This document shows, one piece after another, positions 1,613 through 18,981 of a stretch of DNA of 20,097 bases. Positions within the stretch are counted from its first letter, which is position 1, and each line of letters opens with the position of its first letter. Origin of the DNA: a virus; the IMG/VR virus record IMGVR_UViG_3300017967_002759, positions 1 to 20,097 of that record. One strand, given 5' to 3'. The notes beneath the pieces were generated by a model. The model ran no database searches and was not told where the DNA came from. It was given only the letters and a program-made list of their open reading frames with translations. Position numbers and translations under genes: made by a program.

Positions 1613-4153
1613 TTGAGCTTTTACACATCAGTTGACGTCTATATGAATCGTATCCTGTACCGTGGATACAACGATTCTGGCAAACGTATCACCGGACGAT
1701 ACGAATTTAAACCTACCCTATTCCTACCTGACCCTCAGGATTCTACAGACTGGAAGACCATGGACGGTGATCCAGTGGCTCCGTTACAATTCAATTCACC
1801 ATCTGACATGCGTGACTTCACCAAGAAGTACGATGGTGTAGAAGGCTTTCAGTACTTCGGTATGGATCGTGCAGTCTTCCAGTTCCTTGCCGAAAAGTTT
1901 CCCAATGATATTAAATTCAACAAAGGTCATGTCAATGTGGTCAACCTTGACATTGAGGTTCACTCCGAAGATGGTTTCCCTTATCCAGAAGACGCACTTC
2001 ATCCCATCACAGCTATTACTGCTAAGTCGTCACGGTCTGGTATCTACCACGTCTGGGGTCTAAAAGACTACGACGTATCACAATCCCCACACGATCATCT
2101 CATGATCAAGTACGTCAAGTGTGAATCTGAAACAGAATTACTCGTACGTTTCCTTAAGTGGTGGAAGGATGACTATCCAGATATTATTACTGGTTGGAAC
2201 ATCCGCTTCTTTGACATACCATATATCATCAACCGTATTCTCCGTATTGGTTCAGAAGAAGCTGTTAAGTCTCTATCACCTTGGGGCGTTGTTCGTGAGA
2301 AAAAGGTTCAGTTCAAGAACAAGAATATGGATTCGTACATGATCGTTGGTATCAACGCATTAGATTACTACGATCTGTTTACTAAGTTCGGTTACAGTTA
2401 CGGTGCACAAGAATCATATGCGCTTAACCATATTGCAAACGTTGTCCTTGGTGAACGTAAACTATCCTATGAAGAGTTCGGTTCACTACGTAATCTGTAC
2501 AACGAAAACCATCAGCTTTATATCGACTATAATATTAAAGACGTTGAACTTGTAGAACGTATTGATGAAAAGATGGGTCTAATTGAACTTGCTATGACAC
2601 TAGCCTACAAAGCTGGGGTCAACCTCACAGATGTATTTGGTACTACATCTATCTGGGATTCTATTGTATATCGTGAACTAAATAAGAAAAAGATCGTGGT
2701 ACCAACTATGGATCGTGCTAAGGCATCAGAGATTGCTGTAAAGTTTGCGGGTGGATACGTAAAAGAACCACAGATTGGTATACACGAATGGGTGGTTAGC
2801 TTTGACTTGAACTCACTGTATCCTAATATCATTGTACAGAACAATATGTCACCAGAGACATTAATTCGAGATGGATTGTTACCCCTTGTTCCTGGAACAT
2901 TGAATGTTAAGGTACCTAATCCAGATAAAGAAGGCGAAATGATTGAAGTACCGGTGTCTAGCCAAAATCCTAAAGGTGCAGTTGCGGCAAACGGTTCAAT
3001 GTACTCACACGACCGTCAGGGTGTTATGCCAGAGATCATTGTCAAGTACTATGATGAACGTAAGACTACTAAGCAGGCTATGCTTGCTGCACAACGTAAG
3101 TATCAGAAGGAAAAGACAAAAGAGTTGGAACGTGAGATTAGTCAGCTCGAAAACAAACAGATGGCTATTAAGATTCTACTCAATAGTTTGTTTGGTGCAC
3201 TCGGTAACAAATACTATCGTTACTTTGATCTACGGATTGCCGAAGGTATTACTCTTCATGGTCAGTTCATTATCAAATGGTGTGAACGTACAATCAATGA
3301 TGAACTGAATAAACTTCTTGATACTAACGAGGATTATGTTATCGCTATCGATACTGATTCGGTATACGTTAACTTCTCTAAGTTTGTAGAAAAGTTTCAA
3401 CCCGAAGATCCTGTTCAGTTCCTATCTAAAGTCTGTGAAGAACACTTCAACCCTATGTTTGAAAAGTCCATGGAAGAATTGGCTGAACACAGTAACGCAT
3501 ACACGAACCGTATGGTTATGGAGCGTGAAGTTATTGCAGATCGTGGTATTTGGCAGGCAAAGAAACGTTATATCCTCAACGTACATAACTCTGAAGGTGT
3601 TCAGTATGCTGAACCGAAGATGAAGATCATGGGTATTGAAGCTATCAAGTCTTCAACCCCACAAGTCTGTCGGGATAAGTTCAAAGACGCTTTCAAGCTT
3701 ATGATCGCTGGTGATAAAGATGCTACCCAAAAGTTCATCCAGGACTTCAAAAAAGAATTCAAATCTCTTCGCCCAGAAGAAGCAGCATTCCCTCGCGGTG
3801 TTACAGAGTTAGATAAGTGGGCTGATCGTCGTACCATTTATTCAAAAGGTACACCGATCCATGTACGCGGGTCACTGCTCTATAACCACTTGCTGCAGCA
3901 TCACAGTCTAAAGAACTACGAAGAGATCAAGAAGGGTAACAAGATCAAGTGGGCTTATATGCTTATCCCTAATCCAATCCGTGAAAATGTTATCGCATTC
4001 CCTGATTACCTTCCAGCAGAATTTGGATTAGATAAGTACATCGATTACAACAAACAGTTCGAGAAAACATTCCTTGAACCTCTCGAACCTATTCTTGAAG
4101 CCATTGGCTGGCAAGCAGAAGAACAATTAACTATGGATGATATTTTCGGATGA
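1613..4153 (+). CDS. 43: Family B DNA polymerase (T4 gp43-like)
   Basis: This replicative DNA polymerase with 3'-5' proofreading is 846 residues, close to T4 gp43 (about 900). Exo I is NLDIEV (D113, E115). Exo II is TGWNIRFFD (194-201) and Exo III is YNIKDVELVERI (306-317). Polymerase motif A is SFDLNSLYPNI (396-406), motif B is KILLNSLFGALGNKYYRY (520-537), and motif C is DTDS (580-583). All carboxylates are present, so both activities should be intact. The C-terminus LTMDDIFG resembles a sliding-clamp-binding tail (inference). The start is a TTG at 1613. No in-frame ATG lies near, SFYTSVDVY fits the expected N-terminus, and GGGAG at 1601-1605 is well spaced. It is preceded by a strong promoter and followed with ATGA overlap by the HAD gene. 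Confidence 0.95.
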   Translation: MSFYTSVDVYMNRILYRGYNDSGKRITGRYEFKPTLFLPDPQDSTDWKTMDGDPVAPLQFNSPSDMRDFTKKYDGVEGFQYFGMDRAVFQFLAEKFPNDIKFNKGHVNVVNLDIEVHSEDGFPYPEDALHPITAITAKSSRSGIYHVWGLKDYDVSQSPHDHLMIKYVKCESETELLVRFLKWWKDDYPDIITGWNIRFFDIPYIINRILRIGSEEAVKSLSPWGVVREKKVQFKNKNMDSYMIVGINALDYYDLFTKFGYSYGAQESYALNHIANVVLGERKLSYEEFGSLRNLYNENHQLYIDYNIKDVELVERIDEKMGLIELAMTLAYKAGVNLTDVFGTTSIWDSIVYRELNKKKIVVPTMDRAKASEIAVKFAGGYVKEPQIGIHEWVVSFDLNSLYPNIIVQNNMSPETLIRDGLLPLVPGTLNVKVPNPDKEGEMIEVPVSSQNPKGAVAANGSMYSHDRQGVMPEIIVKYYDERKTTKQAMLAAQRKYQKEKTKELEREISQLENKQMAIKILLNSLFGALGNKYYRYFDLRIAEGITLHGQFIIKWCERTINDELNKLLDTNEDYVIAIDTDSVYVNFSKFVEKFQPEDPVQFLSKVCEEHFNPMFEKSMEELAEHSNAYTNRMVMEREVIADRGIWQAKKRYILNVHNSEGVQYAEPKMKIMGIEAIKSSTPQVCRDKFKDAFKLMIAGDKDATQKFIQDFKKEFKSLRPEEAAFPRGVTELDKWADRRTIYSKGTPIHVRGSLLYNHLLQHHSLKNYEEIKKGNKIKWAYMLIPNPIRENVIAFPDYLPAEFGLDKYIDYNKQFEKTFLEPLEPILEAIGWQAEEQLTMDDIFG

Positions 4154-6356: not shown

Positions 6357-6847
6357 AAGCGGGAAAAGTATGGGGCACAACAGAGCTCATTGAAGCTAAT
6401 GGTGCATTAGAGTTTCACCGTATTGAAATGGAAGCAGGTGGGGTATGCTCTAAGCATCTACACCGTTATAAATGGAATGGATTCTATGTAGAGTCTGGTA
6501 AGATGCTCGTACGCGTGTGGCAGCGCGACTATGATCTTGTAGATGAAACCGTTGTTGGACCTAATCAATACACAAAGGTAAAGCCTGGACTATATCATCA
6601 GTTTGAATGTTTAGAGTCTGGTGTAGCTTATGAACTATACTGGGCAGAATTTAATCACAATGATATTGTACGTGAGTCTGTTGGCGAAATGAAATACGAA
6701 TTAACAGAATCGCCTGGTATTACAATAGATATTGATAACGATGAATTCCCTGATATTACAATAGGTATTGATAACGATGGTAGCTACATCAGCTGGCCTG
6801 GTGAAGATGGTGGTCCAGAAGATTTTAGTACTGGAGGGAGAGTATGA
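6353..6847 (+). CDS. Cupin-domain protein with acidic repeat tail
   Basis: This 164-residue protein has a single cupin in its first 105 residues. The first motif is seen as KHLHRYKWNGFYVESGKMLV (H35, H37, Y45 region) and the second as VKPGLYHQFECLESGVAYELYWAEF. The arrangement resembles small cupins and the cupin domain of type II phosphomannose isomerases. A metal-dependent sugar isomerase or a binding protein are both possible. Residues from about 118 onward form an acidic tail holding a 12-residue tandem duplication (ITIDIDND, then ITIGIDND). The gene overlaps both neighbours by about 4 bases. With the PMM-like HAD gene it may be part of a mannose-phosphate route, but this is inference. 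Confidence 0.7.
   Translation: MKAGKVWGTTELIEANGALEFHRIEMEAGGVCSKHLHRYKWNGFYVESGKMLVRVWQRDYDLVDETVVGPNQYTKVKPGLYHQFECLESGVAYELYWAEFNHNDIVRESVGEMKYELTESPGITIDIDNDEFPDITIGIDNDGSYISWPGEDGGPEDFSTGGRV
6713..6779 (+). repeat. Tandem 36-bp-period duplication in the cupin gene
   Basis: Two 31-base copies, 6713-6743 and 6749-6779, differ at only two positions (6717/6753 and 6729/6765). The period is 36 bases, so the reading frame is kept and 12 residues are duplicated in the acidic tail. High DNA identity suggests a recent duplication. Confidence 0.9.
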
Positions 6848-8572: not shown

Positions 8573-9000
8573 AAATAGGATTTACAGCGTCTACATTTGA
8601 CTTGCTACACGCTGGACACATTTCTATGTTGCGAGAAGCAAAAAGTGTATGTGATTATCTAATTTGTGGTTTACAAGTAGACCCAAGCTATGATAGAATA
8701 GAAAAGAATAAACCGATACAAACACTTGTTGAACGTTACACACAGCTTCAGGCTGTAGGATATGTCGATGAAATCGTACCTTATCAAAGCGAAGCAGATC
8801 TGCTCGATATCATTCAGATGTATCCAATCAATGTACGTATCATTGGTGAAGAGTATCGCACTAAAGATTACACTGGTAAATCAGAATGTACTATGCTTGG
8901 TATTGAGATTTACTATAACGAACGGAACCACCGGTTCTCTTCTAGCGACCTGAGACAGAGAGTAGCTAATGAACAAAGTAACAGGAAGAAATCTGGGTGA
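8569..9000 (+). CDS. Cytidylyltransferase-like protein (TagD / glycerol-3-phosphate type)
   Basis: The product is 143 residues. The nucleotidyltransferase HxGH motif is HAGH (14-17) in FTASTFDLLHAGHISML. The second signature of the family (R-x-x-x-[IF]-S-[ST]-T-x-[IL]-[RK]) is seen as HRFSSSDLRQRV near the end, and RIIGEEYRTKDYTGK matches the GDDW-x-GK region. Such enzymes couple CTP with a polyol or amino-alcohol phosphate. The ATG at 8569 is used because it overlaps the hydrolase stop (ATGA) and gives the family's MKIGFT start; the upstream GTG at 8560 is rejected. Substrate is unknown. It overlaps the ThyA-like gene by 32 bases. Confidence 0.8.
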   Translation: MKIGFTASTFDLLHAGHISMLREAKSVCDYLICGLQVDPSYDRIEKNKPIQTLVERYTQLQAVGYVDEIVPYQSEADLLDIIQMYPINVRIIGEEYRTKDYTGKSECTMLGIEIYYNERNHRFSSSDLRQRVANEQSNRKKSG

Positions 9001-9706
9001 AGGCTTATTCAAGCTACGTCACCTACTATACCATCAGGGATATGAAATACAGACAGCATCGTGGCAGGGTACCGAGTCTCCTCCTGTTTTTTTAGAGGTA
9101 CTACATGCTGATCTGACAGCAAAGATGAGTGATGATCCGCAAGAAGCATCCGATCTTTGTAATGCCACGCAACCGTGGGCAGATGTCCACTTTGCAGAAC
9201 GTGTTGGTGGTGAACCACTTAATCCACCACCTTCACATACGATGTGGCTGAAAGATACTGATCAGTATTTGTCTGGTCAGGCTTTCAGTCACTCGTACCC
9301 TGAACGTATGTGGGCACCAAGTATGGATGGTATCAGGTTCAAAACTGGTAACCTTGGTGATGCAGTAGAACTTCTAAAGAAAGATCCTACTACTCGTCAA
9401 TGTTATATCCCTATGTGGTTTCCAGAAGATATTGTAGCTGCCAATGAAGGTGAACGTGTACCTTGTTCCTTTGGTTGGCACTTTATGGAACGTGGTGATG
9501 AACTACATTGTTCTTATCACATGCGTTCGTGTGACGTAGTTCGTCACTTACACAACGATCTGTACTTCGCAAACAGACTTGGTCTATGGTTAATTGAGCA
9601 AAGTGGTCTCACCTGTAAAATGGGGTATTTACATTTCAGCTCAACTAGTTTACACTGTTTTAGTAATGATCGTTTCGCACTTGGTAGATTGATTGGAGTA
9701 GAATAA
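8969..9706 (+). CDS. ThyA-superfamily pyrimidine methylase/hydroxymethylase with Asn-to-Asp switch (dCMP hydroxymethylase-like)
   Basis: This 245-residue protein belongs to the thymidylate synthase fold family. Seen motifs are TTRQCYIPMWFPED (phosphate-binding arginine region), VPCSF (catalytic Cys166), RSCDV (186-190), MGYLHFSS and LHCFSND (His229, for the HxYSN motif). Aligning RSCDVVRHLHND without gaps to E. coli ThyA RSCDVFLGLPFN puts Asp197 at the position of Asn177. Asn177 reads dUMP; Asp at this place in T4 dCMP hydroxymethylase reads dCMP. ThyX, encoded at 16086, can make dTMP, so this copy is free to modify dCMP. The N-terminal 90 residues are not recognisable as standard ThyA. Hydroxymethylation itself is inference. 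The 3' part holds a weak promoter. Confidence 0.75.
   Translation: MNKVTGRNLGEGLFKLRHLLYHQGYEIQTASWQGTESPPVFLEVLHADLTAKMSDDPQEASDLCNATQPWADVHFAERVGGEPLNPPPSHTMWLKDTDQYLSGQAFSHSYPERMWAPSMDGIRFKTGNLGDAVELLKKDPTTRQCYIPMWFPEDIVAANEGERVPCSFGWHFMERGDELHCSYHMRSCDVVRHLHNDLYFANRLGLWLIEQSGLTCKMGYLHFSSTSLHCFSNDRFALGRLIGVE
9622..9656 (+). promoter_or_regulatory. Weak member of the promoter family ahead of asnB
   Basis: GGGG (9622-9625), then TA, TTTACA (9628-9633), 17 bases, and TACACT (9651-9656). The spacing and G-run match the stronger copies, but the -10 box has only four of six consensus bases. The predicted start is about 43 bases before the asparagine synthetase gene. Confidence 0.4.
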
Positions 9707-16085: not shown

Positions 16086-16760
16086 ATGAAAGCACGTTTG
16101 ATATCTGCAAGCTCTCCTACCAATCACTTTGTTGGTATTGAAAGCGTACAAGATCTTATTGCACACGCAGCACGTGTGTCCAATCCAGGTAATCAGAATA
16201 ATAGTGATACAGCAGGCAAGCTACTCAACTACTTGATTAAGCACAAACACTGGTCACCGTTTGAAATGGCTAGTGCATGTATTGAGGTGGAAACTACACG
16301 TGATATTGCACGACAGTTATTGCGTCACCGTAGCTTTTCTTTTCAAGAGTTCAGCCAACGTTATGCTGATCCTACTAATGAGCTTTCATTTGTAACACGT
16401 GATGCACGTCTGCAAGATCCAAAGAATAGACAAAATAGTATTGAAACATCTGATACAGCCTTACAGGCTTGGTGGCATGCACAACAAGAATTTTTAATTG
16501 AGCACACTAAAAGAATATATATTGAGGCAATAGAAAGAGGTATAGCAAAAGAACAGGCACGTGCCGTACTACCAGAAGGTAACACTGTTTCACGACTATA
16601 TGTAAATGGTACTATCCGTTCCTGGATTCATTACGTTGAACTACGTAGTGGCCATGGTACACAACTAGAACATATTGAACTCGCGCGCGAGATCGGCCGG
16701 GCGATCACAGCTATCTTTCCAATGATAGAGGATTTTATTCATGGAAGTACAGATTCGTAA
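16086..16760 (+). CDS. thyX: Flavin-dependent thymidylate synthase
   Basis: This 224-residue protein has the ThyX signature RHRSFSFQEFSQR (80-92), fitting RHRxxSxxxxSxR. HWSPFEMA, the ARAVLPEG segment (the nucleophilic Ser region is not certain) and LRSGHGTQLEHIELARE near the end are all expected positions. ThyX makes dTMP from dUMP with FAD, NADPH and methylenetetrahydrofolate. With the dCMP deaminase it provides a dTMP route independent of the ThyA-like protein. The last 20 bases are identical to the end of the next gene, so its C-terminus GSTDS was probably formed or copied by the recombination that introduced the glycosyltransferase. Confidence 0.93.
   Translation: MKARLISASSPTNHFVGIESVQDLIAHAARVSNPGNQNNSDTAGKLLNYLIKHKHWSPFEMASACIEVETTRDIARQLLRHRSFSFQEFSQRYADPTNELSFVTRDARLQDPKNRQNSIETSDTALQAWWHAQQEFLIEHTKRIYIEAIERGIAKEQARAVLPEGNTVSRLYVNGTIRSWIHYVELRSGHGTQLEHIELAREIGRAITAIFPMIEDFIHGSTDS
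16741..16760 (+). repeat. 20-bp direct repeat, left copy
   Basis: ATGGAAGTACAGATTCGTAA is identical to 17567-17586. The copy serves as the end of thyX (in one frame, GSTDS and stop) and as the first codons of the glycosyltransferase (MEVQIR) in another. Confidence 0.95.
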
Positions 16761-17586
16761 TAAAGAAATCCTTACAGATCCCGACAGCTATATTGATCTT
16801 AAACCTTTAAATGATTTAAAAGTCTTAATCTGGCAAACCCACGTAGAACATTCTTATAACTATTTTGGTACATCGCCAGAACAGATAGAAGATTATAGAA
16901 CAAATAGGAGCAGCTATAGTAACTTTTATAAGTTTAGTTCTTATACATGTAAAAGATATGCTGAACGATGGGGATTTGATTACAGATTTGATCTGTACGA
17001 AGAAGAAGAATATGAGCCTTTTGTATTTGGCCAATCAAACTTCGATCAGTTTAAAGCTACAACATTTTTTAAAAAATATGATGCTGTTTTATATTTAGAT
17101 ACTGATGTTTTAATTATGCCATGGGCAGATAATATTATAGAAGAATATTCACCAGAAAGAGATTGGAGTAATATATTTGTTAATACCATAATTGGGAATA
17201 AGTTAAAAAATGTTTATCTGCATCGATCCGGTTCCTGTAATACTGGTGTAGTTCTATACTTTAAAGAAGCTGCTGGGGGTGCAATAGATGTAAAACTTAG
17301 ATCCAAAAGGTTTCTGAAAAACATAATTGAGGAAAATGCAGGTTTGTTAACCACCTTTCGATCTGGGCAATTTGATGACGATAAATTTTTTTATCTATTA
17401 CATAATAAACTAGATGGATCTAGACTATGCCATTTGGATGCCAAGTATAATACGGATTTTTATAGTTATAATCAAAATCTAGAAAATATATCGTTTTTAC
17501 ATTGTTCTGGCGAGATGAAACAGTATATAGAAAGAATATATAATAAAGTATACGATGGAGATCGAGATGGAAGTACAGATTCGTAA
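16741..17586 (+). CDS. GT-A-type glycosyltransferase, probable inserted cassette
   Basis: This is a 281-residue protein. KYDAVLYLDTDVLIMP holds the DxD metal-binding motif (DTD, 120-122), and the layout (N-terminal strand LKVLIWQTH, then a SSYTCKRYAERWGFDYRF segment typical of MNN10/GMA12 and GT8-like enzymes) supports a retaining, nucleotide-sugar dependent transferase. Late motifs include GSCNTGVVLYFKE and FLHCSGEMKQYI (His, metal or substrate). The acceptor is unknown; DNA, lipid or protein are possible. The gene looks more AT-rich than its neighbours by eye. It is bracketed by a 20-bp direct repeat, so it reads as a cassette inserted between thyX and the oxygenase. SD GAGG (16728-16731). 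The start overlaps thyX by 20 bases. Confidence 0.8.
   Translation: MEVQIRNKEILTDPDSYIDLKPLNDLKVLIWQTHVEHSYNYFGTSPEQIEDYRTNRSSYSNFYKFSSYTCKRYAERWGFDYRFDLYEEEEYEPFVFGQSNFDQFKATTFFKKYDAVLYLDTDVLIMPWADNIIEEYSPERDWSNIFVNTIIGNKLKNVYLHRSGSCNTGVVLYFKEAAGGAIDVKLRSKRFLKNIIEENAGLLTTFRSGQFDDDKFFYLLHNKLDGSRLCHLDAKYNTDFYSYNQNLENISFLHCSGEMKQYIERIYNKVYDGDRDGSTDS
17567..17586 (+). repeat. 20-bp direct repeat, right copy
   Basis: Identical to 16741-16760. Here it ends the glycosyltransferase gene (GSTDS and stop) and begins the oxygenase gene (MEVQIRN). After the repeat the two starts remain similar in protein (NKEIL against NSELI). Confidence 0.95.
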
Positions 17587-18238
17587 CAGTGAGCTGATTG
17601 AACAGCTTGATGGTTTTATAAATGACTTTTATGCCATTGAGGGATTCGATGATCCTGTATTCCACATGTACGACCCAAAGGATGCCAGAGAAAATGGTAT
17701 TCTATATACGTCAGAAGAATATCTTCACAAACAAATGGCACTTGGAAGTAAGCACACTGGATTCCCTGAACAACACTTTTCACAACCTGTTGGTCAGATG
17801 GCACAAAGGAATCCGGATCAGTTTGCTGATGTTGCTTTCCGTGTAAGAAAAAAATTCCCAGAAGTTTTAGGCGTTCACTCGAGCGCACTATTCAACTATT
17901 ATCCACCCGGTGGTTTCGTTGGTTGGCATACTAACTGGAATGCTAATGCCTACCAGATTCTTTTCACTTGGTCTAAGACTGGTGACGGATATTTCCGTTA
18001 CTGGGATAATCAAGAAAAGAAAATTGTTCACATCGAGGATAAACCAGGTTGGCAATGTAGATGGTACTACTTCGGAAGAGAGGATGAACCAGATTATCAT
18101 TGCTGGCACGCAGCCTATGCAGGATGTGATAGATTTACACTTGCATATAAATTTGTCAACGATAAGATTGGTACCGATAAGGATAGACAAGCTATTATCA
18201 TGAGGGACCAGCTCATAGAAGAAATCGAGGAAGAATAA
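17567..18238 (+). CDS. 2OG-Fe(II) oxygenase-like protein
   Basis: The 223-residue product shows a double-stranded beta-helix pattern: LFNYYPPGGFVGWHTNW, AYQILFTWSKTGDGYFRYW, then CWHAAYAGCDRFTLAYKF. The first iron ligand appears as H121 (HTN), the distal one as H181, and R189 fits the 2-oxoglutarate carboxylate. The usual HxD is HxN here (Asn123), so the third metal ligand is altered or lies elsewhere. The start is placed at the ATG at 17567, with GGAG at 17557-17560, rather than the in-frame ATG at 17555, because it matches the N-terminus of the glycosyltransferase. Substrate unknown; hydroxylation of a protein, base or small molecule are all possible. Confidence 0.75.
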   Translation: MEVQIRNSELIEQLDGFINDFYAIEGFDDPVFHMYDPKDARENGILYTSEEYLHKQMALGSKHTGFPEQHFSQPVGQMAQRNPDQFADVAFRVRKKFPEVLGVHSSALFNYYPPGGFVGWHTNWNANAYQILFTWSKTGDGYFRYWDNQEKKIVHIEDKPGWQCRWYYFGREDEPDYHCWHAAYAGCDRFTLAYKFVNDKIGTDKDRQAIIMRDQLIEEIEEE

Positions 18239-18486: not shown

Positions 18487-18981
18487 ATGAAAATATTGAT
18501 AATTGGATATGGTCGGCATGGCAAAGATACAGTAGCAGAGTATCTCCGTGACCACTATGGCTTAACGTTTAAGTCGTCTAGTATGCACTGTGCAGAGAAT
18601 GCGGTGTTCCCTGCACTACGTGGCATGTACGGTTATAATACTGTAGAAGAATGCTTTGCCGATCGTTCTAACCACCGCACAGAATGGTATGATCTTATCT
18701 CAAAGTATTGTGAATCAGATCCTGCCCGTATTGGTCGTGAGATCTTCGAAGTCTCTGATATGTACTGTGGTCTGAGAAACAAACGTGAGTTTCATGCCAT
18801 TCGCAATAATGGTCTTGTAGATGTTACTATCTGGGTTGATCGTTCAGATTGGTTACCAGCTGAAGATAAATCAAGTAATACACTTGAACCTTGGATGGCT
18901 GATTATGTTATCGATAACAATCGTGACCTTGATGAGCTTTATTGTAACGTAGATGATCTAATGAGGAACATATGCAAATAA
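18487..18981 (+). CDS. Deoxynucleoside monophosphate kinase (T4 gp1-like)
   Basis: The product is 164 residues. The P-loop is GYGRHGKDT (7-15) and the sequence VAEYLRDHYG follows. FKSSSMHCAEN, NHRTEWYDLISKY and IREFHAIRNNGL-type segments (here REFHAIRNNG) are in the order of T4 gene 1 dNMP kinase and related phage proteins. WVDRSDWLP and the terminal YVIDNNRDLDELYCNVDDLM complete the typical fold. T4 gp1 phosphorylates dTMP, dGMP and hydroxymethyl-dCMP, so this enzyme could accept a modified dCMP. The start has no SD and sits at the predicted transcription start. The stop overlaps the TauD-like gene by 10 bases. Confidence 0.8.
   Translation: MKILIIGYGRHGKDTVAEYLRDHYGLTFKSSSMHCAENAVFPALRGMYGYNTVEECFADRSNHRTEWYDLISKYCESDPARIGREIFEVSDMYCGLRNKREFHAIRNNGLVDVTIWVDRSDWLPAEDKSSNTLEPWMADYVIDNNRDLDELYCNVDDLMRNICK

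Follow-up and report, generated by a model that had tools for sequence, protein, structure and literature searches.

The glycosyltransferase (GT) gene located at positions 16741-17586 (plus strand, 281 aa) was probably inserted between two overlapping phage genes together with a target duplication of ~60 bp, an event by which this GT8-like gene took its start and its stop from the junction of thyX and a putative oxygenase gene. The gene was found in a 20,097-base IMG/VR virus record, whose whole length is referred to here as the window; the phage lineage bearing the GT is known from metagenomes alone. Upstream lies thyX, coding for the flavin-dependent thymidylate synthase (16086-16760, plus strand, Pfam Thy1 2e-39), and downstream a gene for a putative 2OG-Fe(II)-like oxygenase (17567-18238, plus strand). 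The 20-mer ATGGAAGTACAGATTCGTAA is present in two exact copies, at 16741-16760 and 17567-17586. No further copy was detected in the window when up to 3 mismatches were allowed, and none was obtained in 100 shuffles. Copy 1 constitutes the last 20 bases of thyX, which ends with ..FIHGSTDS and the stop codon, and it also contains the start of the GT gene (MEVQIRN.., from 16741). In copy 2 the GT gene ends (..DRDGSTDS, stop at 17586) and the oxygenase gene starts (17567). The three genes are read in three different frames and their overlaps consist of exactly the 20-mer, in agreement with the initial annotation, which had described each copy as the stop of one gene and the start of the next. Removal in silico of one copy plus the GT gene (826 nt) left thyX and the oxygenase gene intact letter for letter, as had been anticipated; the joined empty junction, with one repeat copy and no GT, contains GATTTTATTCATGGAAGTACAGATTCGTAACAGTGAGCTG. 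Since the same thyX-GT-oxygenase layout was found in three further contigs that are 99.7-99.96% identical to the window, it is not an assembly artefact.

Similarity between the beginnings of the GT and the oxygenase genes does not stop at the end of the 20-mer, but continues in degraded form to approximately base 60 (16741-16800, plus strand). The oxygenase family starts with (M)TEVxIRNKELLxxLDxFvdxF, the GT with MEVQIRNKEILTDPDSYIDL. When GT residues 8-20 were compared with the oxygenase profile in fixed register, just 35 of 157,801 segments drawn from other phage ORFs fitted at least as well (p=2.2e-4), whereas residues 21-29 did not fit the profile (p=0.94). The same boundary was seen in DNA comparisons of the GT gene with the oxygenase genes of the clade of nearest relatives described below (p=4.4e-5 for bases 21-60, p=0.91 for bases 61-100). 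Each of the GT bases 1-27 is present in at least one clade oxygenase gene, while the exact match to the window's own oxygenase gene is 20 bp, followed by 18 shared bases out of 40 at positions 21-60. The clade state, AATAAAGAA, is retained in the GT leader, and at the corresponding place the window oxygenase gene reads AACAGTGAG, indicating that the copies diverged after base 20. Judged by these comparisons, the duplication exceeds 20 bp, a point at which the initial annotation had only hinted.

The two ends of the GT protein were also compared with its nearest homologues, GT1 and GT2 of locus L035 (39% and 29% identity, respectively). Both start at a position aligned with residue ~26 of the window GT, i.e. 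25 residues later, and both end before DRDGSTDS, so that the last ~8 residues of the window GT (..GSTDS) are extra to the family, whose natural ends are here defined by these two homologues of 29-39% identity. Hence a GT body homologous to stand-alone GTs (about 16816-17556, plus strand) is preceded by a fused leader of oxygenase origin and followed by a thyX-type tail.

Assignment of the body to a family was less straightforward. The window GT scored 19.6 bits (E 7e-4) with Pfam Glyco_transf_8, below the curated cut-off of 24.3, and it is therefore called GT8-like only; its homologue L035 GT1 passed the cut-off with 25.6 bits. DxD, N-x-G and HxxGxxK motifs are marks of GT8, and the window protein has DTD (120-122), NTG (167-169) and HCSGEMK (254-260) in this order. 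The structure model (pLDDT 38) was too poor for fold assignment, and profile matches to LgtC were weak (E 0.07). No close relative or donor of the GT was found in phages, IMG/VR or genomes. An AlphaFold model of the oxygenase neighbour (pLDDT 94) matched 2OG oxygenases in Foldseek, with E of about 1e-4 and a low TM-score. Neither Pfam nor PHROG yielded a match for this protein at E 0.1 despite its relatives at 79 IMG/VR loci, and it carries an invariant HTN motif in place of the usual HxD.

In many of these 79 loci thyX lies directly upstream of the oxygenase gene. The predicted empty allele, in which thyX overlaps the oxygenase gene directly and in the same register without a GT, was found in L006, L007/L008 and L019-L021 (six contigs). 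A tree based on helicase, ThyX and oxygenase had the topology (L006, (window, (L007, L019))), with a support of 1.0 for the clade and 0.93 and 0.65 within it. The GT-bearing lineage is thus nested inside a GT-free clade comprising its nearest relatives, whose oxygenases are 66-75% identical to that of the window. In relatives outside the clade, the junction has the sequence ATGACTGAAGT, which contains the TGA stop codon of thyX. The clade junction is one codon short (ATGGAAGT); the thyX stop is lost and the gene reads through to a later one. ATG-GAA-GTA is confined to the clade, whereas the wider family has ATG-ACT-GAA-GT. Since the clade form is seen in the two window copies alike, the sequence that was duplicated originated locally. 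No GT was found in the remainder of the 35-kb L006 contig, and no GT-free allele of the window's own population was found in IMG/VR.

The cassette had been described as AT-rich, and the GC content of 16761-17566 is indeed 30.8%, compared to 39.4% for the rest of the window; this value is below those of all 17,639 other windows of equal length. At codon positions 1 and 2 the GT has the lowest GC content among all genes of the window. However, GC3 (0.217) and the codon-adaptation measure were within the range of the other genes, so that codon use as such is not odd. No clear excess of expression signals was detected: there were 14 promoter-like sites (10.1 +/- 2.9 in shuffles) and 2 terminator-like sites (1.4 in shuffles), and the sole plus-strand terminator-like stem near the GT is located inside the oxygenase gene.

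The GT-free nearest relatives and the differing composition support the cassette insertion proposed in the initial annotation. Of the two routes considered there, the one by duplication of the oxygenase 5' end is preferable, because the GT holds ~20 oxygenase-derived codons, more than the 20-bp core. From these features we infer the following route. In the ancestor, the overlap of thyX and the oxygenase gene would have been about 20 bases long. An illegitimate event, either a template switch or end joining, may have placed a GT8-like frame that lacked its own start and stop in this junction, and would also have produced a second copy of the oxygenase gene's first ~60 bases. From the left copy the GT would then have gained its start codon and, at the N-terminus, a leader of ~20 codons of oxygenase origin. 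On the right, the GT frame would have entered copy 2 in the frame of thyX and thereby taken over the thyX tail GSTDS and stop codon, while the right copy would have retained the oxygenase start. With each copy supplying ends in this way, both neighbours would remain whole in an operon that has no intergenic DNA to spare. Where there is no intergenic space only such a duplication would spare both neighbours, and selection would retain this outcome among many. Bases 21-60 of the left copy would have drifted later, the 20-bp core staying identical. A single simple duplication does not predict 20 identical base pairs followed by a sharp step, unless selection or gene conversion was involved; the core might have been kept identical by the dual-frame constraint, by gene conversion or recombination between the copies, or by a crossover within the core with DNA of a clade donor.

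The last possibility leads to a different, rather unlikely, origin of the arrangement: a phage of the same clade already had thyX-GT-oxygenase, and the block was acquired by homologous recombination in the flanks, the right crossover falling within the 20-bp core, so that the leader mirrors the oxygenase gene of the donor. The clade state AATAAAGAA of the GT leader would be explained in this way, and so would the identities to L019, which are 72% for ThyX and 66% for the oxygenase but 96% for the helicase. Divergence of the oxygenase gene after the insertion fits the same data, however, no such donor was found in searches of phages and IMG/VR, and the proposal merely shifts the origin to another phage. 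It is unlikely, too, that the GT was gained at the base of the clade and subsequently lost without scar, through deletions running exactly from repeat to repeat, in L006 and in the L007/L019 branch. Such a deletion would yield exactly the GT-free junctions observed, and the support within the clade is modest (0.65-0.93), but at least two losses are needed instead of one gain. As early gain followed by loss accounts for the leader equally well, parsimony alone decides in favour of insertion in the window's lineage.

It is highly improbable that the 20-bp repeat serves as the core site of a cassette mobilised by a site-specific recombinase or a homing endonuclease, although a direct repeat does flank a single gene of different base composition. 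The homology continues as coding sequence, fading out by ~60 bp, and a search for two classes of genes, tyrosine integrase (PF00589) and HNH (PF01844), found neither in the three contigs of the population (fragments of 16.6-49.6 kb). Across IMG/VR the 20-mer occurs in no other context and brackets no other gene, and other genes at the thyX/oxygenase junction are not accompanied by such repeats; the suggestion that the repeat lets whole genes move was not borne out. The location of the repeat at start codons recalls the start-associated sequences of cluster K mycobacteriophages, a 13-bp element located 3-7 bp upstream of many starts (PMC3203893). A functional start signal shared by several genes is almost certainly not the explanation here: in contrast to the cluster K element, the repeat begins at the ATG and is coding, and with just two copies in the window and none at other genes this reading is refuted for this genome fragment.

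The thyX/oxygenase junction has taken in unrelated single genes repeatedly, in different relatives. A 2OG-oxygenase-like gene is located there in L022 (625-1155), a second one in L031 (2214-2699), a small gene, gp74, in L025-L034 (L025:2515-2745), and a further small ORF in L032 (4494-4778). All these genes have ordinary stop-start overlaps and no repeat. A scan of 1.86 Mb of relatives did not reveal any general excess of similar neighbouring junctions (junction score of at least 16 in 8 of 1900 adjacent pairs and in 5 of 1632 pairs at distance two), indicating that the event is rare. In L035, GT2 (3377-4093), a second GT8-like gene, has an exact 19-bp repeat, CATTACAATTTAATTATGG, on either side, located at the 3' ends of GT1 and GT2 (L035:3351-4093) and followed by the similar gene starts ATGTCTAAAG and ATGGCTAAAG. 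Since GT1 and GT2 are distant paralogues, this is a weaker candidate than the window GT. It is quite doubtful that junction duplication serves as a recurrent and reversible way of entry and exit for GT8-like genes in compact operons, with repeats allowing scarless excision and with coexisting GT-plus and GT-minus phages that switch.

Another candidate for a second case, the TET-associated glycosyltransferase of L061 bracketed by CCCTTGAGGCATTTTT, was rejected. In many phages this family and the upstream Tet_JBP family share an S/T-L-E-x-F-F-like tail, whether the genes are adjacent or not, so that shared function is a better explanation for L061. The tail, conserved in the Tet_JBP dioxygenases and TET-associated glycosyltransferases of L061 (6686-8820) and L219-L281, is similar to peptides that bind the sliding clamp. 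For the two tails of L061, the identity also extends over 16 bp at the DNA level. The repeats in L045 and L147 are not gene brackets of the window's kind. A run of neighbouring genes with the common 5' leader AGGTATAACTTATGGCAATTAATATA was observed in L194 (G013 contig, 82630-92638); its members are probably paralogues with a shared N-terminus. Some other features of these sequences may be mentioned. The window encodes homologues of both ThyA-type (8969-9706) and ThyX-type (16086-16760) thymidylate synthases, and within an ORF at 6707-6778 it has two tandem copies of a 36-bp unit that are 89% alike. In L163, a near-identical contig, 13 of the differences from the window are clustered in a 49-bp tract of a kinase-like gene (window-equivalent 18576-18624), as if by a short recombination tract or an assembly join.

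Repeated sequence at gene borders is reportedly also found in the PeSL regulatory cassettes of T4-type phages, said to have been described by Arbiol et al. in 2010 and by Comeau et al. in 2014, which are promoter-terminator (stem-loop) elements thought to aid module shuffling; in this the window repeat is like them. Unlike PeSL, the window repeat is a coding junction. A closer parallel is Island3 gene 68, which is bracketed by a 60-bp repeat of the 3' end of the upstream gene, whereas Brujita has one recombinant repeat copy and no gene; general recombination was proposed for this pair in a 2011 mycobacteriophage study (PMC3029335). As in these Cluster I phages, there is a single extra gene with a repeat of ~50-60 bp at gene ends, a relative has one copy and no gene, and the C-terminal residues of the extra gene match those of the upstream gene. 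In Island3 the repeat covers 3' gene ends only, whereas in the window it spans an overlapping stop and start, and the downstream gene also contributes the start codon and the N-terminal leader of the GT. Moreover, the Island3 and Brujita genomes are nearly identical, while here the oxygenases of the GT-free relatives have diverged to the extent given above, and gene gain or loss by recombination between the copies would be consistent with the data. The GT resembles phage morons in being an extra gene between genes that are adjacent in relatives lacking it, and in its odd base composition. It differs from them in having no clear excess of promoter- or terminator-like sites, morons being described in PMC3029335 as typically having their own promoter and terminator.

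The window GT is thus Island3-like in its working, and what it adds is an overlapping stop/start repeat from which the GT obtains both start codon and leader. It provides a new and clear instance of a process seldom documented in phages, the gain of a whole gene with neither neighbour broken. Gene entry into packed, overlapping phage operons is usually invisible because insertion boundaries have usually decayed. Here both boundaries and the GT-free relatives can be seen, and the start, leader, tail and stop of the gene can be traced to the junction. The arrangement predicts that the GT would be lost without a scar through recombination between the repeats.
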